A stretch of DNA of 64,000 nucleotides from a bacterium (GTDB lineage: Bacteria > Hinthialibacterota > Hinthialibacteria > OLB16): assembly GCA_022072055.1 (NCBI GenBank), contig JAJVIK010000005.1:62001-126000 (forward strand), read 5' to 3'. Positions 32,841 to 52,221 of this stretch are shown here, in pieces. Positions within the stretch are counted from its first letter, which is position 1, and every line of letters begins with the position of its first letter. The position numbers were made by a program, and so were the translations under genes. The notes under the pieces are model-generated. The model was not told where the DNA came from, did no database searches, and saw only the letters and a program-made list of their open reading frames with translations.

Positions 32841-32978
32841 GATGGAGTTCACCTCGGCAATGAGTTTGAGTTGGAGGATGCCCAAACCAGTCTGGCCACC
32901 CAACCGACGTGATGCTATGGTTTGCCCCTTCAATCGTACGGCGATTCTTGCGTATTTGGAGAGGAGTTCCCCCCACCG

Positions 32979-34010
32979 ATGGCGAAAAAGGCCTTGATTA
33001 CCGGCATTACGGGCCAGGATGGATCGTATCTGGCTGAATTCCTCCTGGCCAAAGGCTATGAGGTCTTCGGCATCATTCGCCGTCAGAGCACTTTCGGCAC
33101 CGCGCGCATCCAGCATATCTTCGATGAACCGACGAAACCGGGCGCGAGGCTCCGGTTGATCTACGGCGACCTCACCGACGCCAGCGCCTTGAACAAGATT
33201 CTCCGGACCATCCGGCCGGATGAGATCTACAACCTCGGGGCGCAGAGCCATGTTCGGGTGAGCTTCGATGTTCCCGACTACACGGCGGATGTGGTGGCGC
33301 TCGGAACTCTACGGCTTCTGGAGGCGATTCGAGATTCGGGAATCTCGCCGCGCTTCTATCAGGCAAGCTCCAGCGAAATGTACGGCAAGGTTCAGGAGAT
33401 TCCCCAGACCGAGCGAACTCCCTTCTATCCCCGCAGCCCCTATGCCTGCGCCAAAGTGTTTTCATACTGGATCACGGTCAACTACCGCGAGAGTTATGGT
33501 CTTCACGCCAGCAATGGGATTCTCTTCAACCATGAATCCCCGCGCCGCGGCGAGACCTTTGTCACCCGCAAGATCACGCGCGCGCTCGCGAACATCCTCC
33601 ACAAGCGGCAGGACAAGCTCTATCTCGGCAACCTGGACGCCAAGCGGGATTGGGGTTACGCCGGGGACTATGTGGAGGCGATGTGGCTCATGCTTCAGCA
33701 GGATGAACCCGAAGACTATGTGATCGCGACCGGGAAGAATTATTCGGTCAAGGAGTTTCTGGAAGCCTCCTTTTCCTACAAGGGTTTGGATTGGCGGGAC
33801 TATGTGGAAATTGACCCGCGATACTTCCGGCCCGCCGAGGTGGACGAGCTCCTCGGCGATCCGGGCAAGGCCAAGCGCCAATTGGAGTGGGAGCCAAGGG
33901 TCGGGTTCGAGGAATTGGTCCGCATGATGGTGGACCATGATGTCGAGGATATCCGCAAAATCGTGGAGGGAGATCGGAGCAAGATCTCCCAACAAGGTGA
34001 GATGCATTAA
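32979..34010 (+). CDS. gmd: GDP-mannose 4,6-dehydratase
   Basis: Gmd converts GDP-D-mannose to GDP-4-keto-6-deoxy-D-mannose, the branch point to GDP-fucose, rhamnose, perosamine and colitose. The 343-residue protein begins [20 protein letters not shown] (NADP-binding glycine motif) and has [34 protein letters not shown] and [35 protein letters not shown] supplies the catalytic Tyr-Lys, and [20 protein letters not shown] follows. GGAGAGGAG lies about 12 bases before the ATG. It starts a three-gene operon; the next gene is 12 bases away and encodes a DegT-family enzyme. Confidence 0.96.
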
Positions 34011-34022
34011 AATCAGTTCTTT

Positions 34023-35228
34023 ATGGAAATGACAAAAACCTTCATCCCCAAACAGCAGATCGGTGTCGGCGGTTTCAAGATCGGCGAGGCCGAGCGGAGA
34101 TACCTCGGAGAGGTGATCGACAGCAGCCGCTTGTCCTACGGCCCCATGACCGAGCGCTTCGAGGCCGAATTCGCGCGGCTGCATGATTGCAGGTACGCGG
34201 TGTTCTGCAACAGCGGGACCTCCGCGCTGCACATCGCGCTCGCGGCGCTCAAGGAGCGCGGGGGCTGGGCGGATGGAGACGAGGTGATTGTGCCCGCGGT
34301 CACTTTCGTAGCGAGCTCCAACATTGTGCTCCACAACGGCATGAAGCCGGTTTTCGTGGATGTCGAGCGGGACACCTACAATCTCGACCCGACCAAGATC
34401 GAGGCGGCGATCACGCCGAGGACGCGCGCGATTCTCCCGGTTCACCTCTTCGGGCAACCCGCCAGCATGGAGGGGATCTGGGAGGTCGCCCGGAAACACA
34501 ATCTGGTGGTGTTCGAGGACTCCGCCGAAACCATGTTCGCGCGCTATAAGGAACAGAGCGTGGGAACCCTTGGAGACATTGGCTGCTTCTCGACCTATGT
34601 CGCCCACATCCTGGTGACCGGAGTGGGCGGATTCGCCACGACCAACGATCCCGAGCTCGCAATCCTGCTCAAGAGCGGCATGAATCACGGGCGGGACTCG
34701 ATCTACCTCAACATCGATGACGACAAGGGCAAGACCGGCGAGCAGCTCTTCAAGGTGGTGGAGCGTCGCTTCAAGTTTGTTCGCTTGGGGCATTCGTTCC
34801 GGTGCACCGAGCTTGAGGCGGCCATCGGCCTGGGGCAGCTCGAACAGGCCGAAATGTTCCTTGCGCGCCGTCGGACCCTCGCAAAGCGCTACACCGGCGG
34901 GCTATCCAGCCTCGCCGAGCGCATCCAACTCCCCCGTCCGCGCGAGGACCGGACGCACAGTTACATGATGTATCCGATGGTCCTCCGGGAGGAATCCAAA
35001 TGGGACCTGGTGCGCTATCTCGAGGAGCGGAACATCGAGACGCGCGAGATGATGCCGCTGGTGAGCCAGCCGGTCTACCGCGCGCTGTTCGGCGACATCG
35101 AGGATCAATATCCGGTCGCCAAGTGGATCAACGAGAGCGGATTCTATGTCGGCTGCCACCCCTATCTCGCGGATGAGGAAGTGGATTACATCATATCACA
35201 GATTCACGAGTATTTCAGGAAACGATGA
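34023..35228 (+). CDS. DegT/DnrJ/EryC1/StrS-family enzyme with Lys to His change; probable sugar 3-dehydratase
   Basis: The 401-residue protein has the family fold: GPMTERFEAEFARL, CNSGTSALHIALAAL, DEVIVPAVTFVASSN, and VVFEDSAET with D166 for the cofactor pyridine. The loop that normally carries the PLP-binding lysine reads FSTYVAHILVTGVGG, placing His195 (codon 34605-34607) at the lysine position. In ColD, GDP-4-keto-6-deoxy-D-mannose 3-dehydratase, the same Lys to His replacement removes aminotransferase chemistry and allows PMP-dependent dehydration. The neighbouring gmd makes ColD's substrate. This supports a role in 3,6-dideoxyhexose synthesis for a surface glycan, although ColD itself has a different surrounding loop. 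The stop overlaps the M28 start by 4 bases (ATGA). Confidence 0.82.
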   Translation: MEMTKTFIPKQQIGVGGFKIGEAERRYLGEVIDSSRLSYGPMTERFEAEFARLHDCRYAVFCNSGTSALHIALAALKERGGWADGDEVIVPAVTFVASSNIVLHNGMKPVFVDVERDTYNLDPTKIEAAITPRTRAILPVHLFGQPASMEGIWEVARKHNLVVFEDSAETMFARYKEQSVGTLGDIGCFSTYVAHILVTGVGGFATTNDPELAILLKSGMNHGRDSIYLNIDDDKGKTGEQLFKVVERRFKFVRLGHSFRCTELEAAIGLGQLEQAEMFLARRRTLAKRYTGGLSSLAERIQLPRPREDRTHSYMMYPMVLREESKWDLVRYLEERNIETREMMPLVSQPVYRALFGDIEDQYPVAKWINESGFYVGCHPYLADEEVDYIISQIHEYFRKR

Positions 35229-36664
35229 CCTTCCCCACTCAATCCGAAATGGTCCGGTGGATCGAGGAGGTGGTCTCCTTTGGCACCCGCCGACCGGGTT
35301 CGCCGGCGGACCTGCGGACCGAGGAGTACATTGCCCAGCTGTACGCCTCGTTTGGGCTCGAACGAGTGGAGAAGGAGCCGGTTCCGGTCAACTGCTGTCG
35401 CTCGGATCGAGCGGAGCTTGCCCTTCCCGATGGCTCGCGCGTTCCGGCCTGTTCGGTTCCTTACACGGCTTGGACACCAGCCGCGGGCATCGAGGCGCCC
35501 TGTGTGCTCCTCGGTTCAGGGACTCCCGAGGAGATTGCAGACGCCGAGGTTCGCGGCAAGATTGTGGTCGTGGAGGCGCGCTTCGCCGATTTTTCCGCGG
35601 CCTTCCTCAAGCAGCACGCCACTCATATCCATGACACGGATAACACCATCCCGGATGGAATCCTGCACAAGGCCAACTGGCTGATCACCAATTTCAGCGC
35701 CTATTACGCGGCCCACGCGCGGGGGGCGGTCGCTTTGGTCGGAATCCTTGTGGACGCGCCGATTGACGGGTGCGAGTACTGGGTTCCTTACGATGGCTTC
35801 CTCAAGGACTTGCCGGCGGTGTGGGTGGGACGCGAACAGGCGGACACGCTTCGGAGTCCGGCGCACTGTGGAGAAAGGCTCACCCTGTTCAGCGTGGGAG
35901 AAACCCGCCGAATTGAATCCCACAATGTGGTCGGCTGGGTTCCGGGCAGGGGTGATGAGATCGTGGTGGTGACCTGCCACCATGACGCCCCTTTCGCTTC
36001 GGCGGTGGAGGATGCCTCCGGGCTTGCGGTGCTGCTGGCCTTGGCGAAACACTTCGGGGCTTTTCCGAGAACCCTGGAGCGCAGCCTTGTTTTTGTGGCC
36101 TCCTCGGGACACTTTCATGGCGGGGATGGGAACCGTGTCTTTGTGGAGACTCATCGAGAGGATCTGCTCCCTCGGATCGTGGCCGCGCTGGGAGTCGAAC
36201 ATTTCGCCAACGAGGTCGAAAGCGGGCCGGACGGGAAGTACAGGCTGACTGGATTGCCGGAGGTGCGCGCGCTGTTCTGCGACAGCCAGGCCCTCTCAGC
36301 GCGTCTCGCGGAATTGCTGAAACCCGGAGTCCTCGAACGGGGCCTGATTCTGCCCCCGTATATCTTTGGTCCCGAGCCGCCCTGTGACAGCGCGCCGTTC
36401 TTCACCGCCGGAATCCCCTCGCTGTGCCATATCAGCGGGCCGCTGTACCTGTTTGATCCGGAGGACACCCTCGACAAGGTGCGGGTGGAGGACCTTGTCC
36501 CGGCGGTTGGGGTGTTTTCCGAGCTGATTCGAGGAATTGACGCGACGCCCGCCGCTGAATTGGAGCGGGGACTTGCTCGCAAGCGGACTGATCCGCCGGC
36601 CGCGCCCCCGCACTGGTTCCTGCCCCCCGAGGATTACCTCAAGAGAATGGGCGCTCACGGCTGA
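35225..36664 (+). CDS. M28-like zinc peptidase with inserted PA-like domain
   Basis: The 479-residue protein has no signal peptide. Residues 1-60 resemble the lead of M28 peptidases (FGTRRPGSPADLRTEEYI). An inserted segment follows (residues about 75-220) with the PA-domain feel, APCVLLGSGTPEEI, then VRGKIVVVEA. The catalytic part has VVTCHHDAPFASAVEDASGLAVLLALA with candidate zinc ligands His and Asp, and later ALGVEHFANE, and CHISGPLYLFDPEDTLDKV near the end. This is close to aminopeptidase/glutaminyl cyclase-like M28 proteins; activity may be amidase-type rather than peptidase. Its start overlaps the DegT-family gene by 4 bases, so it belongs to the deoxysugar operon, where its role is unclear. 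Confidence 0.75.
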   Translation: MTFPTQSEMVRWIEEVVSFGTRRPGSPADLRTEEYIAQLYASFGLERVEKEPVPVNCCRSDRAELALPDGSRVPACSVPYTAWTPAAGIEAPCVLLGSGTPEEIADAEVRGKIVVVEARFADFSAAFLKQHATHIHDTDNTIPDGILHKANWLITNFSAYYAAHARGAVALVGILVDAPIDGCEYWVPYDGFLKDLPAVWVGREQADTLRSPAHCGERLTLFSVGETRRIESHNVVGWVPGRGDEIVVVTCHHDAPFASAVEDASGLAVLLALAKHFGAFPRTLERSLVFVASSGHFHGGDGNRVFVETHREDLLPRIVAALGVEHFANEVESGPDGKYRLTGLPEVRALFCDSQALSARLAELLKPGVLERGLILPPYIFGPEPPCDSAPFFTAGIPSLCHISGPLYLFDPEDTLDKVRVEDLVPAVGVFSELIRGIDATPAAELERGLARKRTDPPAAPPHWFLPPEDYLKRMGAHG

Positions 36665-39369: not shown

Positions 39370-42300
39370 ATGAGGCGCTTGATTTGCCTGATCTTGCCTG
39401 GAGTCCTTGTGTTCGGGTCGGCTTGCGCCTGGCCCGCCACCCCCGGTCTGCCGTTCACGGAGGATTTCTCGGCCACGAGTCTGCGTGACGCCACCCGCAC
39501 CACCGCGAACTGGGACACGGCCGCGGGGGAGCTGCTCGCGCCGCCGGCGAAGCGGCTGTACGGGGCGGCCTTTGGCTCGGTAACGCCGTTCTCTTTCAGC
39601 AGTGCCATGTCCACAACCGATTTGGCGACTGGAGACATGGATGGGGACGGTGATCTCGACTTGGTGGCCGTCAATAAGAACCAAGTCAACCAACTCTTCC
39701 TCAATAGCGGCACATCCAGTCCCTTCAGCGGAGTGACAGCCAAGGACATCACAACCGACGCGCTAGACACCGTTGGCGGAGATATTGGCGATGTGGACAA
39801 TGATGGAGACCTGGATTTCGTTGTCGGTGTCCTCAACGCTGGTAACCGCCTTTACTTGAATAACGGAACCTCCGACCCCTTTGCGGGAGCTGTGGGGATA
39901 GTGATTGATTCGGACAACCTGAAAACCTACGACGTCGCATTGGCCGATTTTGACAATGATGGGGATCTCGATCTGCTGGCGACGACTCTGAGCGACGCAG
40001 CGAGCATGCTCTACCTCAACGACGGGGTTGGAAATCCTTGGGACACCGCCACTCCGAAGGCCATTGGAACCGCGACGCAGAATGTCTTCACGCAAGAAGT
40101 GGTGGACCTGGACGGGGACGGTTATCTGGATATCGTCTTCCCCGCGGAGAACAGCAATAGCCGGGCATTTTTCAACAACGGAACTAGCGATCCCTTTAAC
40201 GGAGTCAGCGCCTTTGAATTCACGAAGCCGACCAACCGTGCACAAGGTGTCGCAGTCGGCGATTTGGATGGCGACGGCGATGTCGATGTCGTCTTCAATG
40301 AGGATGGCGTCTCCGCAGGCGAAGTCAACTACTTGTTTCTCAATAATGGGACTGCGACTCCATTCAATGGCGTCACCGCGAAACAGATCACGTCCGACGC
40401 GAACCGGGGGTTCCCAGCCCGAATCGCGGACCTGAATAACGACGGCGCCTTGGATGTAATTATCGGAAACGCAGGGGCTGGCTCGGGGGAGATCAATCGC
40501 ATCTACTTCAATAACGGGACCGCCGATCCCTATAGTGGCGTGTCGGGTATCAACCTGGGGACCGAAACGGATGTAACCCGCGCGCTTGTGGCGGGGGATT
40601 TTGACGGCGACGGGGACATCGACATCGTCGCGGGGAATAACGGCCAGGCCAACCGCCTCTATCTCAACCCCGCCAATGAGAACCCGTGGAATGGGGTGGG
40701 CGGGAGCGATGTGGGATCAGACACCTACTCCACCGTCCGGATTGCAGTTGCGGATATTAACGGAGATGGGAAGCTCGATGTCGTTGCTGGAAATGACAAT
40801 ATGGCCTCCAGTCACCGGAATCGCCTGTACTTGAACAATGGGACGGCCACTCCGTTCAACGGCGTCGTGGGAACCAATGTCGGCTCCGAATCACGGAGAG
40901 TAGCCGGAATTGGAATTGCCGACTTTAATGGAGATGGTCGCCTCGATATAGCGTTCGCAAATGGCGTGGCCGAGTCTCAAGTGAACCGCCTCTTCTTGAA
41001 TGACGGGGCCGGGGACCCTTTCGACATGGCCACTGGTGTCGATATCACTTCCGACACTCACCATTCGAGGGCCATAAAAGTTGGTGATATTGACAATGAT
41101 GGCGATATTGATGTCGTTATCGCAAACACGTCCGACAATAACCGTCTCTACAGGAACAGCGGCAATGGCCTCGCCTGGACAGGAACCAATATCGCCACGG
41201 ACCCGGGTACCACTTTGGATATTCTTATTGGCGATTTTAATGGCGATGGTTGGCCTGATGTCATTGCGGGAAATAGCGACGGCCCTGAAACGTTGTACCT
41301 TAACGACAAGACAGGTGACCCATTTGATACACTAGGAGGTGTCAACCTCCCCCTTCCCGGCGGGGGTGGGACCCATTCTTATCTGGCTGCCGGGGATGTG
41401 GACCGCGATGGTCACCTCGATGTAATCGCGGCCGACCCCAACGCGGGGCTAGAAGGATCAATTCTCTACTTAAACAACGGGACCTCTTCCCCCTTCACAG
41501 GGGTGACCCCCATTTCCATTCCCGACACATCCACAGGGCGTCCACTCATGCAACTCTGTGACGTGGATGGGGACGGCGATTTGGATTTGCTTTCCTATGA
41601 CTACGGCGAATCAGTCTGGGTTCACTTGAATAACGGGACGAGCAATCCATGGGAGGGTGTGAGTTCGATTAACATTGCCGGTTCCAATGTATCTCAGGGT
41701 AACAGTATCGTGTGCGCAGATGTCGACAACGATGGAGACCTCGACCTGGTCCAAGGTGTTGAAGGGGGAACCACCAAACTCTATCTCTCCACCGCCGCGG
41801 ACAACGGCGGGCTGCACCCGTGGAACGCAAATGGCTTCTATGGAACTCAACTCCCAGGCTTGGCGGCCACCCACGGTCTTGCGTTTGGCGATGTTGACGG
41901 TGACGGCGACATAGACTTGGTTGAAGGGGACCGAAGTGGAGGTCCGCCTCTGTATACATTGAACAATGGGACTTCCGATCCTTATCAGGGCCAAACCCCT
42001 ACTGCGATCGGATCGGATATGTATCGCACGACCGATGTCAGGCTCGCCGACATCGACAACGACGGAGACCTGGACCTACTCACTGCCAATGGAGGCGAAG
42101 CCGTCTTGTCTGGAATTGTGGCCCAGCCCAACCGGCTTTACCTTAATAACGGAACCAGTACGCCATGGTCTCCCCTCACCGCGCTCACTATAGGTACCAT
42201 TGACTATGCGACGCGCAAGATCGCGGTCGGCGACGTTGATGGCGACGGGGACCTCGACGTGGTTACGGCGGAACAGAGTTTGTCCCCGAATCACCTGTAC

Positions 42301-45300
42301 CTGAACGACGGTTCCTCCGCGCCATTTGTTGGTTTGGCCGCTGCCGACATCGGCGCGGCGACTGACAAATCAAACGATATTGCGCTCGCCGATTTCAACG
42401 AGGACGGCATCCTCGACGTGGCGGCAGTTCACGGGGTTGGGGGAACCGCCAAACCTTCCTATGTCTATCTTGGGAGCGCCTCGACGACGAACCCGTACTC
42501 CAGCTCGACGCCGATCCAGCTACCCAATGCCGACAGCTGGTCCGTGGAAGTGGGGGACGTCGACCGAGATGGCGATATCGATATCGTGGAGGGAATCCTG
42601 TCAACATTTGGACAGGTCAATCGAGTTCATATCAATGGCGGGACTGGAACCGTTTGGACTCAAGTCGATGTCGGTGTCGATGCGGTCAGGACCGACGGCT
42701 CCGCGGTCGGGGACCTTGACGGGGACGGGGACCTGGACCTATCCGCAATCCAAGAGCATTCACCAAACGATCTTCGCTTATACCTGAATGACGGCACCAC
42801 GGATCCCTGGAATGGTGTGGCGGGAATCCTTGTGGATCCATCATTCGGAAGTAATTCGACCAACAAAGGAGGAACCGTGGAGTTCGCGGATGTTGATGGA
42901 GATGGTGACCTCGATATCATAGCGGGCTTATACGAGAATGGCGGTGGGGCAGGAGACAATGGGCTTGCAAACCGCCTCTACCGGCGTTGTCCTCTTTGCA
43001 GGCCGTCCTCTTCCTTTGCCACCTCCCTCACCATCGACACCGAACCCGGCAACATCCCCGACGCGCTCCTAACAGTCACCGACACCACACCGGACCACAC
43101 CTCGATCCGCTACTACCTCTCCAACAACGGCGGCGCGCAGTGGTTCCAGGTGACACCGGGAGTGTCGTTTGTTTTCCCAACCACCGGCAGTGATTTGCGC
43201 TGGCGGGCGGAGCTCGCTTCCCTCTCTCCGGTCGTGTCGGCCTCCATCCAGAGCGTGATGATCACCGGTTCCGTCGCCCCGACCGAGACCCCGACCGCCA
43301 CGGCGACACAGACCGACACGCCGACGGTTACGGCAACCAGCACGAGCACTCCAACCGACACGTCCACTCCCTCGCCATCGAAGACTCCCGTCCCGCCAAC
43401 CGCGACGCCCACTTGGACCGGCACGGAAACCGCCACGCCAACCAACACGGTGACTCCGCTCTATGGGACGCCGGTTCAGATCAAGGCGCCATCCGAGGCC
43501 ACCAACGCGAACTTCGGCTATTCGGTGGCCGGGATCGGGGATGTCAACGGGGATGGCAAGGGGGACCTGATTGTCGGGGCGCCCGCGGCGGATGCTGATA
43601 GCCCAGCCCTTGCGGGGAAGGTCTATCTGGTGGATGGAGGGACCGCCGCGGTCCTGGGTGAATTCGCGGTCGCCTCCCCGGAAGTGGGCGGCCAGTTCGG
43701 ATACTCGGTCGGGAGCGTTCCGGACACAAGTGGAAACGGAACTTGGGACGTTGTGATCGGCGCCCGGCTGGGGGATGGCGGCTCCGCTCCAAGCGATCGG
43801 GGACGAGTGTTCCTTTTTGAAGGGTCCACTCGGAGCTTGATCCGGGAGCTCACCTCACTCGGCGCGGATGGGATGGGCTACTTCGGCGCGGCGGTCGCCG
43901 GGATGGGCAGCGTCAACGGGGACAGCTTCGGCGATATCCTTGTGGGAGCCTATCAAGAGGACATTACACAGAATAACAGTGGGAGAGCCTATGTTTTCAG
44001 CGGGACCGCGAATCAGGTGATCCATGACCGTCAACCTCAGGCGCCCGCCGCGGACGGGAATTTCGGGTGGGCGGTGGCATCGGTTCCCGACACAAACAAC
44101 GATGGCGCGCCCGATTTTGTGGTCGGGGCGATAAGAGACAATGGGAGTGTAACCGAGGAAGGGCAGGCCTACTTGTTCAGCGGTGCCACAGGAGCCCTCC
44201 TCCAAACCTTGGACAACCCGGATGGCGAGGTGGGGGGCCGTTTCGGATACGCCGTGGCGGGGGTCGAGGATGTCAATGGGGACGGCTGGGGGGATGTGGT
44301 GGTCGGGGCGCGTGACGAAGACCCCGGGACCAGTCCGGCCGCGGCGGGGCGTGTTCATGTCTTCAGCGGCGCGACCGGAACGCACATAAGGGCAATCGCC
44401 TCTCCCAATGAGGAGATGAACGGTTTCTTCGGTTCCGCCTTGGCGGGGATCCCCGATCTGGATGGGGATGGGTTCGGTGATATCCTTGCGGGCGCGTACC
44501 AGGAGGACCCGGGAGGAAGCCCGACCGAAGCGGGGCGGGTTTATGTCTTGAGCGGCGCGTCCGGCGCGGTGCTCCAAACCCTGGCGTCGCCTGAGGAAGG
44601 AGCCAATGGCTTCTTTGGATTCTCCGTGGCGGCGGTCCCGGACGCAAACAACGATGGGTACGCCGAAATCGCGGTGGGCGCGCGGTCGGAATACGCCGGT
44701 GGTGGCCCGGCGGGTTCCGGGCGTGTTTACCTCTTCTACTCTGTCCTTCCGCCCCTACCGACCGCAACCGCTTCTCAAACCCCAACGGGGACGCAGACAT
44801 CCACCTCTACCCAAACCCCGACTTCATCGGGCACCCACACCCGCACCGCGACCGGAACAAACACCCGCACGGCCACGCCGACAGAGACGAATCTCCCGAC
44901 TTCGTCTCCAACCGCCACCTCCACTCACACTTCCTTGCCAACCTCCACCGGCACGGCCACAAATACAGCAACCCCAACAAGCACGGGGACGAACACCGAG
45001 ACACCCTTGCCCACCGAAACACAAACGCCTCAGCCCACGGCCACCGCCACGAACACCGAGACCTCGCTTCCGACACACACCTCCACGCCAACCGCGAGTG
45101 TCACCCACACGCCTCTTCCTCCCACATCGACATCGACCAGAACCGCAACCGGCACAAACACGGTAACCCGCACGGCGACTCCGACCCGGACCGCCACCGG
45201 AACGAACACCCCCTCGGCCACGATCACAGAAACTCCCACCGCAACCCAGTTCGGCGCTCCCAGCTCGACCCCCACTCAAACCCCGACCGTGTCCGGGACC

Positions 45301-46536
45301 GCCACAGTGACTCCCACGGACACGATTTCGGAGACCCCCTCTCCGAGCGCTTCTGTAACTCAAACAGAAACCGCAAGCCCGACCACCACCGGAACGTTGA
45401 CACCGAGCCCAACCGCGACCGCCACGCCGACACCTTCCGCAACTCTCGATGGACCCACGCCGACGGCAACCGCCTCGCCCACGGCCACCGAGGTTCCACG
45501 CCTTGTGGATGTCATCCCGGACGACACCATCACCCTGGGGCCGGGGCTGGCCCGGTTCGCGTTTTCGTTCTCGGTGCCCATGAATCGGGAGGAAGCCCCC
45601 ACGGTCACCTATGGGCGGGTGTTCCCCTTCGCCCTGGGAAGCCTGTTTCCGGACCCGGGCTGGACCAATGATTTCACTTGGGTTGGGGTCACCGAACTTC
45701 CCGATTTCCTCACCGATGGCTTGTATACATTGCGTGTGCGCAACGCGGAGACCTTGGATGGCGCGACTGTTCCTGAGGATTCCAGCCATCAATTCCGCTT
45801 CCTCAAGCAGAACCCGAACGACCTCACCGAGGGACGTGTGACCGATGAGGCGGTCAACGCGCTCGGGATGGAGTGGGATCGCTCCGGGAACACGGATGTA
45901 TCCGGGCACATCATCGGCAGCGCGCCGCAAGCGAACGGACCTTACGATGTCGTGGCGGGAGTCGGATCCTCGCAGGATGCCTTTATCCATCTCGGCCTGA
46001 ACAGCGACACCGCTTACTTCTATCGCATATATGAGGTCTCCCTGAACAAGGGGAACGCCTCGACGGTTCGACAGCTCACCAACACCTTTGATGGCCGCAC
46101 CCTGGCGCTCTTGGCCAACGGTCGCGCCGAGGGGATCTCCTACAACAAGATGCGGATTTCGTGGGAGAGCGATGACAATCCGAGCACGGTCGGATTCCGG
46201 GTCCGTCGCGCCACGCACCGGAACGCACTCGGTGACTGCGGCGAGAATCCGGGGAGCATCATCGCGGAAGCCACTTCCGAGGTGACAGCGGCGACCGATG
46301 AGGGGCTTCATTCCAACACCGTGTACTTCTATGACATCTGTTTGTTGGACCAGGAAGGGAACACCTCGCGCTTGGAAAACCCATTTGTCGGCAGGACCCT
46401 CGGCATGGATCCCAATGGAGACGGCACGGTGGACGCTCAGGACTTGCTGTGGTTCCTTGACGCGGCGACCAAGGGTCAGGAAACGCAGGATATCCTGATC
46501 GAATTCTCGCTTCAGTGGGACACGTCGGTGGAATGA
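39370..46536 (+). CDS. Giant secreted VCBS/FG-GAP surface protein (2388 aa)
   Basis: A signal peptide (LICLILPGVLVFGSACAWP) opens the protein. Residues about 75-1195 are over twenty VCBS-type repeats of roughly 50 residues, each with a Ca2+-binding loop of the form D(x)D(x)DGD(x)D followed by NRLYLNNGT. A short beta-sandwich (about 1210-1300) and a Thr/Pro linker follow. Residues about 1375-1795 carry seven FG-GAP units (FGYSVAG, FGYSVGS, FGAAVAG, FGWAVAS, FGYAVAG, FGSALAG, FGFSVAA), the number for an integrin-alpha-like propeller. A 245-residue TPT-rich linker leads to the C-terminal module (2041-2388), shared with the 1229-residue protein and ending in an EF-hand/dockerin-like DPNGDGTVDAQDLLWFL. 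Likely an adhesin or polysaccharide-binding surface protein. Confidence 0.9.
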   Translation: MRRLICLILPGVLVFGSACAWPATPGLPFTEDFSATSLRDATRTTANWDTAAGELLAPPAKRLYGAAFGSVTPFSFSSAMSTTDLATGDMDGDGDLDLVAVNKNQVNQLFLNSGTSSPFSGVTAKDITTDALDTVGGDIGDVDNDGDLDFVVGVLNAGNRLYLNNGTSDPFAGAVGIVIDSDNLKTYDVALADFDNDGDLDLLATTLSDAASMLYLNDGVGNPWDTATPKAIGTATQNVFTQEVVDLDGDGYLDIVFPAENSNSRAFFNNGTSDPFNGVSAFEFTKPTNRAQGVAVGDLDGDGDVDVVFNEDGVSAGEVNYLFLNNGTATPFNGVTAKQITSDANRGFPARIADLNNDGALDVIIGNAGAGSGEINRIYFNNGTADPYSGVSGINLGTETDVTRALVAGDFDGDGDIDIVAGNNGQANRLYLNPANENPWNGVGGSDVGSDTYSTVRIAVADINGDGKLDVVAGNDNMASSHRNRLYLNNGTATPFNGVVGTNVGSESRRVAGIGIADFNGDGRLDIAFANGVAESQVNRLFLNDGAGDPFDMATGVDITSDTHHSRAIKVGDIDNDGDIDVVIANTSDNNRLYRNSGNGLAWTGTNIATDPGTTLDILIGDFNGDGWPDVIAGNSDGPETLYLNDKTGDPFDTLGGVNLPLPGGGGTHSYLAAGDVDRDGHLDVIAADPNAGLEGSILYLNNGTSSPFTGVTPISIPDTSTGRPLMQLCDVDGDGDLDLLSYDYGESVWVHLNNGTSNPWEGVSSINIAGSNVSQGNSIVCADVDNDGDLDLVQGVEGGTTKLYLSTAADNGGLHPWNANGFYGTQLPGLAATHGLAFGDVDGDGDIDLVEGDRSGGPPLYTLNNGTSDPYQGQTPTAIGSDMYRTTDVRLADIDNDGDLDLLTANGGEAVLSGIVAQPNRLYLNNGTSTPWSPLTALTIGTIDYATRKIAVGDVDGDGDLDVVTAEQSLSPNHLYLNDGSSAPFVGLAAADIGAATDKSNDIALADFNEDGILDVAAVHGVGGTAKPSYVYLGSASTTNPYSSSTPIQLPNADSWSVEVGDVDRDGDIDIVEGILSTFGQVNRVHINGGTGTVWTQVDVGVDAVRTDGSAVGDLDGDGDLDLSAIQEHSPNDLRLYLNDGTTDPWNGVAGILVDPSFGSNSTNKGGTVEFADVDGDGDLDIIAGLYENGGGAGDNGLANRLYRRCPLCRPSSSFATSLTIDTEPGNIPDALLTVTDTTPDHTSIRYYLSNNGGAQWFQVTPGVSFVFPTTGSDLRWRAELASLSPVVSASIQSVMITGSVAPTETPTATATQTDTPTVTATSTSTPTDTSTPSPSKTPVPPTATPTWTGTETATPTNTVTPLYGTPVQIKAPSEATNANFGYSVAGIGDVNGDGKGDLIVGAPAADADSPALAGKVYLVDGGTAAVLGEFAVASPEVGGQFGYSVGSVPDTSGNGTWDVVIGARLGDGGSAPSDRGRVFLFEGSTRSLIRELTSLGADGMGYFGAAVAGMGSVNGDSFGDILVGAYQEDITQNNSGRAYVFSGTANQVIHDRQPQAPAADGNFGWAVASVPDTNNDGAPDFVVGAIRDNGSVTEEGQAYLFSGATGALLQTLDNPDGEVGGRFGYAVAGVEDVNGDGWGDVVVGARDEDPGTSPAAAGRVHVFSGATGTHIRAIASPNEEMNGFFGSALAGIPDLDGDGFGDILAGAYQEDPGGSPTEAGRVYVLSGASGAVLQTLASPEEGANGFFGFSVAAVPDANNDGYAEIAVGARSEYAGGGPAGSGRVYLFYSVLPPLPTATASQTPTGTQTSTSTQTPTSSGTHTRTATGTNTRTATPTETNLPTSSPTATSTHTSLPTSTGTATNTATPTSTGTNTETPLPTETQTPQPTATATNTETSLPTHTSTPTASVTHTPLPPTSTSTRTATGTNTVTRTATPTRTATGTNTPSATITETPTATQFGAPSSTPTQTPTVSGTATVTPTDTISETPSPSASVTQTETASPTTTGTLTPSPTATATPTPSATLDGPTPTATASPTATEVPRLVDVIPDDTITLGPGLARFAFSFSVPMNREEAPTVTYGRVFPFALGSLFPDPGWTNDFTWVGVTELPDFLTDGLYTLRVRNAETLDGATVPEDSSHQFRFLKQNPNDLTEGRVTDEAVNALGMEWDRSGNTDVSGHIIGSAPQANGPYDVVAGVGSSQDAFIHLGLNSDTAYFYRIYEVSLNKGNASTVRQLTNTFDGRTLALLANGRAEGISYNKMRISWESDDNPSTVGFRVRRATHRNALGDCGENPGSIIAEATSEVTAATDEGLHSNTVYFYDICLLDQEGNTSRLENPFVGRTLGMDPNGDGTVDAQDLLWFLDAATKGQETQDILIEFSLQWDTSVE
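45793..45965 (+). repeat. Shared C-terminal module, copy 1 (DNA repeat)
   Basis: This 173-bp stretch inside the giant protein gene matches 51478-51650 at 159 positions without gaps (hand count). Thirteen of the 14 differences are synonymous; the one amino-acid change is Thr to Ala. Confidence 0.9.
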
Positions 46537-46840: not shown

Positions 46841-48505
46841 ATGAGTACCAAGTCCGTGATCCTTTTGGGGATGCTGATCCTCCTGCAGGTCCCGGCTGCG
46901 GCCACGGAGTATTACGTGGATATCCAGAACGGGAGCAACCAGACCGGGGATGGAAACATCGGCAATCCCTGGCGCAACATCACCTACGCGCTGGCGCAGA
47001 TTTCCGGCACGGGGCACACGATCCATGTTGCCCCGGGGGTGTATGACAAGTCGCAGGACGCCGGGGGGTTATCGGAATCTTTCCCGATCCAGATGGAAAC
47101 GGGTGTTTCGATTGTGGGCGACCAGGGAGCCGCGGTCACTGTCCTGGACGCGCTGAACCAGAGTCCCAGGACGCGGGTCATTCAGGCGGTGAGCATCGCG
47201 GCGGGAACTGTCTTGCAGGGACTGACAATCAAGAATGGGCAGGCATCGGATAGCGGCGGTGGGATCTATATGAGTTCCTCGTCGATGACGGTTCAGGATT
47301 GTATTATTGAATCGAACGCGGCTTCCTCTTCTTTTTCTTCCACGTATGGGGGAGGGATATACATTAGCGGCGGGTTCAGCAACACACCACTGATTGATGG
47401 TTGTATCATCCGAAACAATTCCACAGTCACTTCTTCTTCAAATGGTATTGCATTTGGCGGGGGAGTGTTTGTCTCAGGTGCGGTGCCAACTATTACAGAC
47501 AATTCAATCATCGGAAACTCAGCAAGTCAGGCTGTATATTCTAATCCGACGTACGGTGGTGGAATTCATCTTTCTAGTTGCCCAGGGTCCTCCATCACGA
47601 GGAACATCATTGTAAGCAACAGCCTTTCCTCAACGGATTATGCTTATGGGGGAGGGTTATACTTGATTTCATCCAGTGGTTCTATCTCACGAAACCTCAT
47701 CAAAGCGAACACGTTAGGTTCGCAGGGGACTCGAGCCGGAGGAGGTATCTATATTTCCGGGAGTTACTCGGGGGCTCCAAGCATCATAAGAAATGAAATC
47801 CTCGGCAATGACCTGCAGGGCCTCTATATTGGGTCGTCGCAAGTCATGAACAATACAGTGGCCCGTAATGGTACCAACGGAGTTTACGTTATTGGATCAG
47901 CAAGTATCATCAACAACTCAATTGTAAACAACGGATCGCATGGCCTCTATGGCTCTAGTTCAGGGAATACAACCGTTCGGAACAATGTGATTGCGAGTAA
48001 CTCTGGCTACGCCATGTACGAGGCAGCAATTGGTTTCGATTTCACAGCCGACTACAATCTCCTTTACAGTAACCCCTCCGGACTGTGCTTCGACGAGGGA
48101 ACCACACCCATCGGAACACTCGCTCAACTCAACATCACCTCCGGTTACACCAACAATCTCGAGGGGAATCCGATCTTCGCGGACGAGGCCTCCGACAACT
48201 ACCGCCTCACCTCCACCTCCCCCGCCAAGGACGCCGGGTCCTCCACCAGCGCGCCGACCGATGACGCCGACGGCGAACCGCGCCCCAATGGGGCCGGATA
48301 TGACATCGGTGCGGATGAGTATTACGCCCCCCACGCCGCCGATACAAACACCAATTATGTGATCGAAAACTTCGAGATGCTCCGCTGGGTGGATGATTGG
48401 GCCAACAGCCTCATCACCCAAGGCCAACTGGATGAACTCAAGGCGATCTGGTCTTGCCTCAACGGATACAAATCCGATGGCTTTGGTGGATTCACCTGCC
48501 GCTGA
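46841..48505 (+). CDS. Secreted right-handed beta-helix protein
   Basis: The 554-residue protein has a signal peptide (SVILLGMLILLQVPAAATE) followed by a DUF1565-like start (YYVDIQNGSNQTGDGNIGNP, then WRNITYALAQ). It continues as a parallel beta-helix with NNS, GGG and GGIYIS rungs (GGGIYMSSSSMTVQDCIIE, GGIYISG, NNTVARNGTNGVYV). The end, FADEASDNYRLTSTSPAKDAG with GYDIGADEY, is the choice-of-anchor Q type terminal domain seen in surface proteins. The last 50 residues form a helical tail (MLRWVDDWANSL, LDELKAIW). Such helices bind or cleave polysaccharides, but no lyase catalytic residues can be assigned. ATG at 46841 has AGGAGGG upstream. The 1229-residue gene follows after 26 bases. Confidence 0.85.
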   Translation: MSTKSVILLGMLILLQVPAAATEYYVDIQNGSNQTGDGNIGNPWRNITYALAQISGTGHTIHVAPGVYDKSQDAGGLSESFPIQMETGVSIVGDQGAAVTVLDALNQSPRTRVIQAVSIAAGTVLQGLTIKNGQASDSGGGIYMSSSSMTVQDCIIESNAASSSFSSTYGGGIYISGGFSNTPLIDGCIIRNNSTVTSSSNGIAFGGGVFVSGAVPTITDNSIIGNSASQAVYSNPTYGGGIHLSSCPGSSITRNIIVSNSLSSTDYAYGGGLYLISSSGSISRNLIKANTLGSQGTRAGGGIYISGSYSGAPSIIRNEILGNDLQGLYIGSSQVMNNTVARNGTNGVYVIGSASIINNSIVNNGSHGLYGSSSGNTTVRNNVIASNSGYAMYEAAIGFDFTADYNLLYSNPSGLCFDEGTTPIGTLAQLNITSGYTNNLEGNPIFADEASDNYRLTSTSPAKDAGSSTSAPTDDADGEPRPNGAGYDIGADEYYAPHAADTNTNYVIENFEMLRWVDDWANSLITQGQLDELKAIWSCLNGYKSDGFGGFTCR

Positions 48506-48531
48506 GGTCGCGGAGCCGACAGGAGCGCAAG

Positions 48532-51500
48532 GTGAGAAACGACCGCGTTTCCCGTGGGACAGGCATCCTGCTTGTCGGGGGGTGGGAAAAGGACAGGCAA
48601 GATGGCTGTCCCCCCAGCTTGGGCGCGCTCCTGCTCCTCCTGTTCACTCTCCCCGCGTTCGCCGATATCACCGGAAGCCGGAGTCTCCCCGGAAGCTATG
48701 TGGGGGCCACGACGGCCCATGTGGAAATCGCGCTCACGATAACCGGCGCCACCCCGGTGTATGGAGCCGTGGTTGAAGAGACGATTCCATCGGGATGGAA
48801 CCTCGCATCGTCCTCGCCAACACAGGATAAGTTCTCATCCTCAACAAACAAGATCGCCTGGCTGATTACAGATGCAAGTGGACTGGACTCGCAAACACTC
48901 GAATATGATGTACTTGTTCCGTTGGGACAGACCGGAAGCAGCGTGTTCTCTGGCCAAATCCATTACTTACTGGAGGATGTGGAAACTTCAGTCACCATGG
49001 GTGGTAACACAAGTCTGCCTCAGTCCACGCCAACGACGACGCCGACACAGACCATTACCGGGACACCGACACAAACCGGGACCCCCACAAACACGGCGAC
49101 GGTGACCCCCACACTCAATCCACTTGCGCTTTCCGGCAGCCGCGACTTGCCCTTGGATTATTCTCCCGGGCTTCCGGTGGAGGTGAGTGTGTTCTTGGAC
49201 ACCGACGCATCGGTTCCCCTTAAGGGTGTGATCCTTGAGGAGACCTTGCCCGCCGGCTGGAGTGTCACGGCCTCCACGCCCGCTGTGGACGCCTTCGATT
49301 CCGATAGCGGCAAGGCGCGGTGGCTGCTGGTCGATATGACCACGGTGGCTGACCAAACGGTCGATTACCGCCTGCTTCCTCCGATTACTGACACCGGGAA
49401 CAAGACCTTTAGTGGATCACAAAGCATCCGCCTGTCGAATACAGGATATATCATCACGATGGGAGGAGAGACAAACCTTCCGAAAGCCCTGCCAACTTCG
49501 ACGCCGACCGTAACACCGACTTTCACGCGCACGTTGACACACACGCAGACCGCTACACCCACCAGGACCCCCACACTGGACCCCAATGCACTTATCGGAA
49601 CGCGGAATCTCCCCGCGAATTACCTGCCCGGCGAACCGTTGGAGGTTCAGGTAACCCTCAACTTGAACGAAGCGTCACCCGCCAAGGGCCTGATCCTCCA
49701 GGAGACGGTCCCCTCCGGTTGGCTGGTTCTCGATTCCACGCCCGGAGTGGATGCGTTCAATTCATCGAGCAGCCAAGCCCGATGGCTTCTGATGGACATA
49801 TCGGGGCTCCCCGACAGCGTGGTCGAATACCGTGTCCTGTCCCCGATCACCGCGTCCGGCCAGCAGGCATTCAGCGGAACACTGCATGTCCGCGCGGCGA
49901 ACAGCGACTACTCCCTGGCGGTGGGAGGGGAGAGCCTTCTCCCCCAGGGACCGCCATCCTTGACCCCCACGCGAACCATCACAAACACCCCCACGATCTC
50001 CCCCACCCGAACGCGGACCCCCACTCGATCCCCAACGATTGCCCCGGCTCGAGTTGTCGGGATTCGGGAGTTGCCGCTCCAATACGCCCCGGGGCAGACT
50101 GTCAGCGGCCGGATCCGATTGGAGATCGGCCCCGAATCCCCGCCCAAGGGGTTGATTGTATCGGATCAGCTTCCCTCGGGCTGGCTGCTGCTCTCCTCCA
50201 ATCCCACGGCCAATGCCTTCAATTCGACCTCCGGCGAGGCTCGCTGGTTGCTCGCCAGCATCGCGGGGCTTGGGGATGGGTTCGTCGACTTCGAGGCGCT
50301 GGTGCCCATCACGGAGAGTGGAGCGAAATCGTTTCAGGGAACCTTGAGCGCGCGACTCGAATCGTCGGAGTATGTCATCCCCGTGATCGGCCACAATCAG
50401 GTCGGGCAGACCCCCCGCGCCACGGACACCCCCTCACGGACTTCGACCTCCACTCGGACCCCCACGGATAGCGCCACGTTTACGCCCACGACAACCTCGA
50501 TCCCAACTCATTCTTTCACTCCGACCGGGACAAGCTCCTTTACCCCCATTCCAATTGACACCGATACACCGAGCGCGACCCCGACAGGGACCGCCACGCT
50601 CACGAAGACACCGACGCCAACCCATTCGGGCACGCAGACACCAACCGCAACCAGTTCACCTACAATCACGGAAACCGCCACCGGCACGGACACCCAGACG
50701 CCGACACAAACGGTCACGCATACCGTGACGGAATCACACACACCGTCCTCAACGATTACCGAAACGCCGACGAACACCCAAATCGGAGCGCCGACCTCCA
50801 CGCCAACCCCAACCACGACCGACACGTTGCCACCCACCGCAAGCGCCTCCCCCACGGCTTCCGGAACGGACACGCCTCCCCTGAACACAGCCACGGTGAC
50901 ACGCACAGGGACCGCCACGCCCTCTCGATCCTTCACTCTCACAAGGACCCCCACCGGGTCGATGACTCCCTCTCCGACCATCACCCAGACCCCCACCGCG
51001 ACCCAGTTCGGCGCGCCCAGCTCAACCCCCACCGAGACCGCGACCATTTCCGGAACGGCGACAATCACCGTAACCCCAACGGATTCACGGACCCCGACTC
51101 CAAGCGCAACACGGACCCTGACCCCAAGCCCATCCACAAGCGCCACGGCCACACCCTCCGCCACGGTGGTCGGTATCCCGCTCCTTGTGGATGTTATCCC
51201 GGATGAGAGCATCACCATCGGGGTCGGAGACGCCATCTTCTCGTTCACCTTTTCTCACCCGATGGACCGTGACCGGGATCCATCCGTGACATTCGGCACT
51301 CCGCCGCTGTATAACATCGGCCTGCGGTTCACTCCCGCGCCGGGATGGGTGGACGATTTTACCTGGTACGGCGGCGTGCAACTTCAGAGCTTTGTCAGCG
51401 ACGGCTTGTACACGCTGCGGGTCACTGACGCGCGGACCGCCACGGGGGCGTCCATCCTTCCGGACACCAACCACAACTTCCGTTTCCTCAAGCAGAACCC

Positions 51501-52221
51501 CAACGACCTCACCGAGGGACGAGTGACCGACGAGGCGGTCAACGCGCTCGGGATGGAGTGGGATCGATCGGGGAACGCGGATGTATCCGGGCACATCATC
51601 GGGAGCGCCCCGCAAGCAAACGGACCTTATGATGTCGTCGCGGGGGTTGGCCCCTCGGCGGATGCTTTTGTCCACCTCGGACTGACCAGCGACACGGCTT
51701 ACTTCTATCGCATCTATGAGGTCTCCCTGAACAAGGGGAACGGAAACGGTGTCCGGCAGCTCACCAACACCTTTGATGGCCGCACGCTGGCGCGACTGGC
51801 CAACGGGCGAGCGGAGGCGATTTCGCAGACCCGGATGCGGATCACCTGGGAGAGCGATGACGACCCGAGCACGCTCGGCTTCCTGGTCCGTCGCGCCACG
51901 CACCGAGACGCGCTCGGAGACTGCGGCGAAAACCCGGGAACCATCATCGGAGAGGTCCCCGCCTCCACGAACGAGGCCATCGACATGGGACTCCACGCCG
52001 ACAGCGTTTACTATTACGACCTCTGCCTGCTGGATGACCAAGGGAACAGCATGCGGTTGGAAAACACCTTCGCCGGGCGGACGATGAGCCTCGATCCGAA
52101 TGGGGATGGGATGGTGAACGTGAGAGACCTGCTTTGGATTCTGAATTCAGCCAGGGATGATGAGAATTCTCTGGAGGTGCTCATCGAGTTCTCGCTGGGG
52201 TGGGACGGTCAAATTCAATAG
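48532..52221 (+). CDS. Large secreted repeat protein with TPT linkers (1229 aa)
   Basis: GTG at 48532 is chosen because AGGAG lies 6 bases upstream. An odd N-terminus precedes a hydrophobic signal core (LGALLLLLFTLPAFA). Four copies of a 115-120-residue domain follow (about residues 45-160, 200-320, 355-470 and 508-623). Each has the pattern R(x)LP(x)xY(x)PG, then P(x)KGLIL(x)ET(x)PSGW, then ARWLL, and F(S/Q)GTL. TPT-rich linkers separate them, and a 255-residue one leads to a C-terminal module (882-1229) shared with the 2388-residue protein. The end carries DPNGDGMVNVRDLLWIL, EF-hand/dockerin-like. The repeats resemble unnamed adhesin-type domains of planctomycete-like secretomes. A palindromic repeat lies within the first 30 codons. 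Confidence 0.87.
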   Translation: MRNDRVSRGTGILLVGGWEKDRQDGCPPSLGALLLLLFTLPAFADITGSRSLPGSYVGATTAHVEIALTITGATPVYGAVVEETIPSGWNLASSSPTQDKFSSSTNKIAWLITDASGLDSQTLEYDVLVPLGQTGSSVFSGQIHYLLEDVETSVTMGGNTSLPQSTPTTTPTQTITGTPTQTGTPTNTATVTPTLNPLALSGSRDLPLDYSPGLPVEVSVFLDTDASVPLKGVILEETLPAGWSVTASTPAVDAFDSDSGKARWLLVDMTTVADQTVDYRLLPPITDTGNKTFSGSQSIRLSNTGYIITMGGETNLPKALPTSTPTVTPTFTRTLTHTQTATPTRTPTLDPNALIGTRNLPANYLPGEPLEVQVTLNLNEASPAKGLILQETVPSGWLVLDSTPGVDAFNSSSSQARWLLMDISGLPDSVVEYRVLSPITASGQQAFSGTLHVRAANSDYSLAVGGESLLPQGPPSLTPTRTITNTPTISPTRTRTPTRSPTIAPARVVGIRELPLQYAPGQTVSGRIRLEIGPESPPKGLIVSDQLPSGWLLLSSNPTANAFNSTSGEARWLLASIAGLGDGFVDFEALVPITESGAKSFQGTLSARLESSEYVIPVIGHNQVGQTPRATDTPSRTSTSTRTPTDSATFTPTTTSIPTHSFTPTGTSSFTPIPIDTDTPSATPTGTATLTKTPTPTHSGTQTPTATSSPTITETATGTDTQTPTQTVTHTVTESHTPSSTITETPTNTQIGAPTSTPTPTTTDTLPPTASASPTASGTDTPPLNTATVTRTGTATPSRSFTLTRTPTGSMTPSPTITQTPTATQFGAPSSTPTETATISGTATITVTPTDSRTPTPSATRTLTPSPSTSATATPSATVVGIPLLVDVIPDESITIGVGDAIFSFTFSHPMDRDRDPSVTFGTPPLYNIGLRFTPAPGWVDDFTWYGGVQLQSFVSDGLYTLRVTDARTATGASILPDTNHNFRFLKQNPNDLTEGRVTDEAVNALGMEWDRSGNADVSGHIIGSAPQANGPYDVVAGVGPSADAFVHLGLTSDTAYFYRIYEVSLNKGNGNGVRQLTNTFDGRTLARLANGRAEAISQTRMRITWESDDDPSTLGFLVRRATHRDALGDCGENPGTIIGEVPASTNEAIDMGLHADSVYYYDLCLLDDQGNSMRLENTFAGRTMSLDPNGDGMVNVRDLLWILNSARDDENSLEVLIEFSLGWDGQIQ
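48556..48612. repeat. Interspersed palindromic repeat in signal-peptide coding region
   Basis: Imperfect 21-base arms (48556-48576 with 48592-48612, 18 of 21 pairing) flank a 15-base G-rich loop. The arms begin GGGACAGGCATCCTG, a sequence type known as a REP-like interspersed element in several environmental genomes, where its reverse-strand translation is a hallmark (GTAILPVLF and DKQDACPTG). Confidence 0.75.
51478..51650 (+). repeat. Shared C-terminal module, copy 2 (DNA repeat)
   Basis: Partner of 45793-45965; see there for identity. It encodes residues about 983-1040 of the 1229-residue protein. Confidence 0.9.

Follow-up and report, generated by a model that had tools for sequence, protein, structure and literature searches.

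In the window, i.e., the whole stretch of 64,000 nucleotides that was analyzed, a gene for a DegT-family protein with histidine in place of the Schiff-base lysine (His-DegT) lies between a gmd gene and a gene for an M28-family peptidase-like protein (Table 1). The gmd gene, for which a longer alternative open reading frame with a TTG start at 32922 exists, is the only one in the genome of the window (single match in a genome search). It ends at 34010, and His-DegT starts at 34023, which confirms the 12-bp spacing given in a preliminary description of this DNA. The start of the M28-like gene overlaps the His-DegT stop codon by 4 bp (ATGA), and the three genes look like a single operon. No homolog of the M28-like gene was found near the His-DegT gene in the neighborhoods of its relatives. 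Elsewhere in the window, two very long open reading frames with Thr/Pro-rich linkers were noted on the + strand (39370-46536, with VCBS/FG-GAP-like repeats, and 48454-52221); their C-terminal regions are near-identical, with a dockerin-like stretch at the end.

Table 1. Features of the gmd/His-DegT locus in window coordinates.
Feature	Position	Strand	Remarks
gmd, GDP-mannose 4,6-dehydratase	32979..34010	+	ATG start; TIGR01472 544.5 bits vs. curated cut-off 415
His-DegT gene	34023..35228	+	Intact ORF, 401 aa; proposed GDP-4-keto-6-deoxy-D-mannose 3-dehydratase
Asp166 codon	34518..34520	+	Cofactor (pyridine N1) aspartate; D in every aligned sequence
His195 codon (CAC)	34605..34607	+	Column of the Schiff-base lysine; equivalent to ColD His188 and E1 His220
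Insertion, residues 223-252	34689..34778	+	At the E1/RfbH Fe-S cysteine site; cysteine-free here, as in ColD
M28-family peptidase-like gene	35225..36664	+	Pfam PF04389, E 8.7e-8

The His-DegT protein belongs to the Pfam family DegT_DnrJ_EryC1 (E 3.5e-98). Its best NCBIfam scores, 241.3 bits for RfbH (cut-off 423) and 236 bits for PseC (cut-off 423.5), are below the curated cut-offs, and the protein is therefore not a named equivalog. The loop bearing His195 reads GCFSTYVAHILVTGVGG, and the corresponding column is occupied by lysine in GDP-perosamine synthase as well as in all seven aligned Lys-type DegT paralogs (7/7) from the genome of the window. The alignment hence bears out the earlier observation that lysine is replaced by histidine at residue 195, with the cofactor aspartate Asp166 retained. 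A sequencing error or an isolated mutation at this position can be ruled out, since the histidine is conserved in 21 of 21 full-length bacterial relatives (22 bacterial members including the window protein) and in all 30 relatives from viral contigs that cover the position (30/30). The ColD columns Gly56, Asp159, Glu162, Ser183, and His188 are likewise conserved in the window protein; the Asn248 column holds serine (Ser258) throughout the branch formed by this protein and its relatives, referred to as the window clade, and serine is also present there in a second, cysteine-bearing clade discussed below. The exchange of lysine for histidine suggests that His-DegT probably removes the 3-hydroxyl group of a GDP-sugar, as ColD does.

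The insertion listed in Table 1 is free of cysteines across the whole window clade according to the alignment. The E1 ligand columns C193, C251, C253, and C261 correspond to A168, S226, Y228, and T238 in the window protein, where C251, C253, and C261 are conserved in the aligned RfbH sequences and C193 is taken by us to be the fourth ligand on the basis of the ligand spacing in E1. E1 and SpnQ use four cysteines to hold a [2Fe-2S] cluster, while ColD has no such cluster, its product being released by hydrolysis and PMP being regenerated with glutamate (PMC8987622). The lack of cysteine at all four ligand columns implies that the window protein has no Fe-S cluster either, and as far as can be judged from the sequence this favors a ColD-like chemistry. 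That the enzyme is instead a reductive 3-dehydratase of the E1/RfbH type, which would require a [2Fe-2S] cluster and a reductase partner, is highly improbable: RfbH gives the best NCBIfam score (241 bits, yet with a cut-off of 423) and the insertion is located at the E1 cysteine site, but none of the four E1 ligands is present (0/4) and the neighbors of the window gene are not CDP-glucose genes. His-type DegT proteins without Fe-S cysteines were also noticed in Roseibium (L126) and Rhodococcus (L125). The Roseibium gene lies beside rfbF/rfbG (CDP-glucose genes), which indicates that GDP-linked enzymes are not the only ones to lack these cysteines.

For the main phylogenetic tree, the columns of the catalytic loop and of the insertion were removed. 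In this tree, the His enzymes, namely the window clade, the ColD relatives, E1/RfbH, and a cysteine-bearing, heptose-linked clade, formed one clade (support 96/94) with a single Lys/His change, and a tree computed by a quick method with the viral rows added gave the same result (SH-aLRT 94 for the His group). A tree keyed on residue 195 had been proposed as a check, and its outcome places the window protein in the His (3-dehydratase) clade and rules out a placement in a Lys clade. Within the His enzymes, the window clade is a separate branch (100/99; SH-aLRT 99 with the viral rows), and ColD groups with E1/RfbH (100/99). Forcing ColD and the window clade together was rejected (AU p = 0.024), in accordance with the earlier suggestion of a distinct subfamily. 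A topology uniting the window clade and the second clade was not rejected (AU p = 0.42), and the branch order among the His clades is unsure because some branches are long, above all that of the Streptomyces gmd-linked enzyme. As part of the explanation as a whole, the window clade is likely to be a subfamily separate from ColD that occurs in some bacteria and in many phage-like contigs.

The second His clade was found in 16 further genomes among those listed, at 38-42% identity, and the histidine is present in all 15 aligned rows (15/15), including the protein from the Solidesulfovibrio plasmid (L042). The latter had been considered as a member of the window clade; the tree, however, puts it in the cysteine-bearing clade. 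In members of this clade (L033-L040, L042, L065-L078), the insertion bears a conserved set of four cysteines (GRACKCxxC...C; motif C-x-C-x2-C...C-x-[KR]RF). Their gene clusters include genes resembling HddA and HddC together with SDRs, and in many cases also two E1-like subunits of the TPP-dependent kind. The second clade may represent an Fe-S-using GDP-heptose 3-dehydratase, unlike the ColD-like enzymes of C. jejuni.

The bacterial sample consisted of 295 genomes of the group containing an 'Elusimicrobia bacterium' MAG, 21 of which encode full-length window-clade relatives with 51-63% identity and the loop FSTY[VIAT]AH...TG[VA]GG. In the phylum of the window itself, no close DegT relative was found in 13 other genomes (E <= 1e-80). 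In one genome of the same family as that of the window (G012), an Fcl-like gene comes after gmd and there is no DegT gene; this order suggests that His-DegT was either gained beside gmd in the lineage of the window or lost in G012. The gmd and His-DegT genes are immediate neighbors in the window (gmd-DegT) and, in the reverse order (DegT-gmd), in G175, G165, and G264; in most members of the Elusimicrobia group gmd lies elsewhere in the genome and not beside His-DegT. At the level of whole genomes, gmd was present in 20 of the 21 clade genomes as compared with 75 of the 274 others (Fisher p 5e-10, uncorrected for genome size, completeness, and kinship), and no gmd was found in the window-clade genome G297. 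An SDR similar to GDP-fucose synthase/ColC is located directly downstream of DegT at three loci (L044, L052, and L059, with overlapping genes in L044 and L052) and no more than about 7 kb away in nine further contexts, usually beside a glycosyltransferase resembling dolichol-phosphate-mannose synthase. In these Fcl/ColC-like SDRs, the Cys, Tyr, Lys, and His residues known from ColC are retained. A Haladaptatus plasmid locus (L043), at first taken as a relative on account of its overlapping SDR, carries lysine and was dropped. The proposal of a ColD-type 3-dehydratase is sustained in part: the change from lysine to histidine, the position in the His clade, the absence of Fe-S cysteines, and the linkage to gmd and ColC/Fcl-like genes speak for it, whereas the protein falls outside the ColD clade.

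Sets of gmd, His-DegT, and SDR genes were also noticed on plasmids of an actinobacterium (Streptomyces sp. HUAS 15-9, L124) and a haloarchaeon (Haladaptatus pallidirubidus, L122), in both of which His-DegT is annotated only as aminotransferase. Judging from these two cases, ColD-like pathways look wider than annotation implies. Predictions of colitose genes exist for several phyla (PMC7725333), and a verrucomicrobial endosymbiont was described as having ColD and ColC together with transketolase, GmhA, HddA, and HddC (PMC8204192).

Relatives were also found among viral contigs. A scan of IMG/VR with the window protein as single query found nothing; with an alignment as query it returned 37 loci, 30 of which (25 distinct) are window-clade relatives with 44-55% identity. 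Among the 27 virus records, gmd was seen in 13, always near His-DegT (12 distinct, nearest edges <= about 3.2 kb), and not in the other 14, which may be fragments. On seven distinct viral contigs, gmd, an Fcl-like gene, and His-DegT occur together, and fucosyltransferase-like GT10 or GT11 genes lie near the module in the viral contigs examined. The contigs in which the window clade was noted as common, often in such gmd/Fcl-like/His-DegT modules, are L128-L158 and L161. Since the large subunit of a terminase (phrog_2, E 6.5e-25) is encoded on the 103.6-kb record of L136 (an example locus, L136:3355-7149) and an endolysin-like protein on the 186-kb record of L158, at least some of the carriers are probably real phages. 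A scan for PF03237 detected a terminase in 4 of the 27 virus records, which is a weak test of viral origin as other terminase families exist, and the IMG/VR set may contain bacterial contigs misfiled as viral. It is conceivable, though tentative, that uncultured phages carry, in their gmd/Fcl-like/His-DegT modules, an iron-sulfur-free GDP-sugar 3-dehydratase subfamily distinct from ColD which has been exchanged between phages and bacteria. If true, these phages would possess their own 3,6-dideoxyhexose pathway, altering host or virion glycans.

The structure predicted with AlphaFold2 from 27 sequences (pLDDT 92.2) is as expected for the DegT/aspartate-aminotransferase fold. When its PDB matches are ranked by E-value, GDP-perosamine synthases come first (TM 0.86 by query), followed by E1 (TM 0.88), with ColD (0.85) lower in the list. 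A match to an enzyme presumed to share the substrate is compatible with the proposed function; this modeled fold cannot separate a dehydratase from an aminotransferase. A PMP-dependent aminotransferase that, despite its histidine, forms GDP-perosamine or another 4-amino sugar would agree with these best matches, which are Lys-type enzymes, and SpnQ, a His enzyme, does transaminate without its reductase (PMC8987622). Yet the histidine is invariant, the window clade groups with 3-dehydratases, and neither ColD nor E1 shows transamination under the SpnQ conditions (PMC8987622), so that such an activity appears very unlikely.

The His-DegT protein is likely to be an iron-sulfur-free, glutamate/PMP-dependent GDP-4-keto-6-deoxy-D-mannose 3-dehydratase with a ColD-like mechanism that forms its own subfamily. 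The histidine and its conservation, the predicted fold, the clade, the missing Fe-S cysteines, and the gene linkage are what the analysis shows; the reaction, substrate, and end product are inferred. In the putative reaction, Gmd, encoded just upstream, would supply GDP-4-keto-6-deoxy-D-mannose, and PMP held by Asp166 would form a Schiff base with its 4-keto group. His195, with which an internal aldimine would not be possible, would take the role of the base, and the C3 hydroxyl would leave. The enamine would be released and hydrolyzed to GDP-4-keto-3,6-dideoxymannose and ammonia, with glutamate restoring PMP and electron transfer via an Fe-S cluster being unnecessary. A separate Fcl/ColC-like epimerase/reductase would then yield a colitose-like 3-deoxyfucose as the finished sugar. 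No 4-reductase was found in the window operon; the best candidate in the genome is an unlinked Fcl-like gene (G000:C4:78395-79294) that adjoins a gene resembling dolichol-phosphate-mannose synthase and whose product is 51% identical to the SDR of L052. With regard to the idea that the operon makes a GDP-3,6-dideoxyhexose, gmd and His-DegT would provide the first steps, and the final reductase is missing from the operon.

The weakest step is the assignment of the substrate, which is based on the linkage to gmd. The true substrate of the same 3-dehydratase chemistry might be a different GDP-4-keto sugar, for instance GDP-6-deoxy-4-keto-heptose or a branched-sugar intermediate. C3-dehydratases of C. 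jejuni which are 62-67% identical to ColD use GDP-6-deoxy-4-keto-heptose (PMC10440746), and identity alone thus does not fix the substrate. Moreover, the related cysteine-bearing clade clusters with HddA/HddC homologs, and the genome of the window encodes one HddA-like kinase, with a score of a third of the family cut-off. On the other hand, neither HddA nor HddC is found beside the window gene or most of the window clade, the adjacent gmd is above the equivalog cut-off for GDP-mannose, and the fucosyltransferase-like genes of the viral contigs examined fit a fucose-like product. A different GDP-4-keto sugar is hence rather unlikely.

Only a few types of 3-dehydratases have been characterized to date (E1, ColD, and SpnQ). 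The window clade would add a deep-branching type without an Fe-S cluster, and this is relevant to the question of a single or multiple origins of C3 deoxygenation by the hydrolytic (ColD-like) route. It would further lead one to expect 3,6-dideoxy sugars in bacteria that have received little study and in phages, with a possible change of surface glycans and phage recognition.

In comparison with known systems, the window protein shares with ColD (WbdK of E. coli O55) the exchange of lysine for histidine, the cofactor aspartate, the cysteine-free insertion, and the company of gmd; that of a ColC/Fcl-like reductase is matched in window-clade relatives and unlinked in the genome of the window. 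It differs from ColD by its low identity (26%), its separate clade, its loop (FSTYVAHILVTGVGG vs. FSSFYSHHIATMEGG in ColD), and serine in place of Asn248. With E1/RfbH and SpnQ it has the histidine and an insertion at the same site in common (31% identity to E1); E1/RfbH, however, are characterized by Fe-S cysteines and CDP-glucose genes, as opposed to no such cysteines and gmd in the case of the window protein. GDP-perosamine synthase (RfbE/Per, 3bn1) is closest by E-value in solved fold and sequence (39% identity), and its substrate, GDP-4-keto-6-deoxymannose, is presumably the same, but it is a Lys-type aminotransferase from the Lys group of the tree. Finally, the GDP-6-deoxy-4-keto-heptose C3-dehydratases of C. 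jejuni HS:5/HS:11 employ the ColD-type chemistry with PLP and glutamate that is proposed here for the window protein, whereas they are close ColD homologs (62-67% identical) with a heptose substrate.
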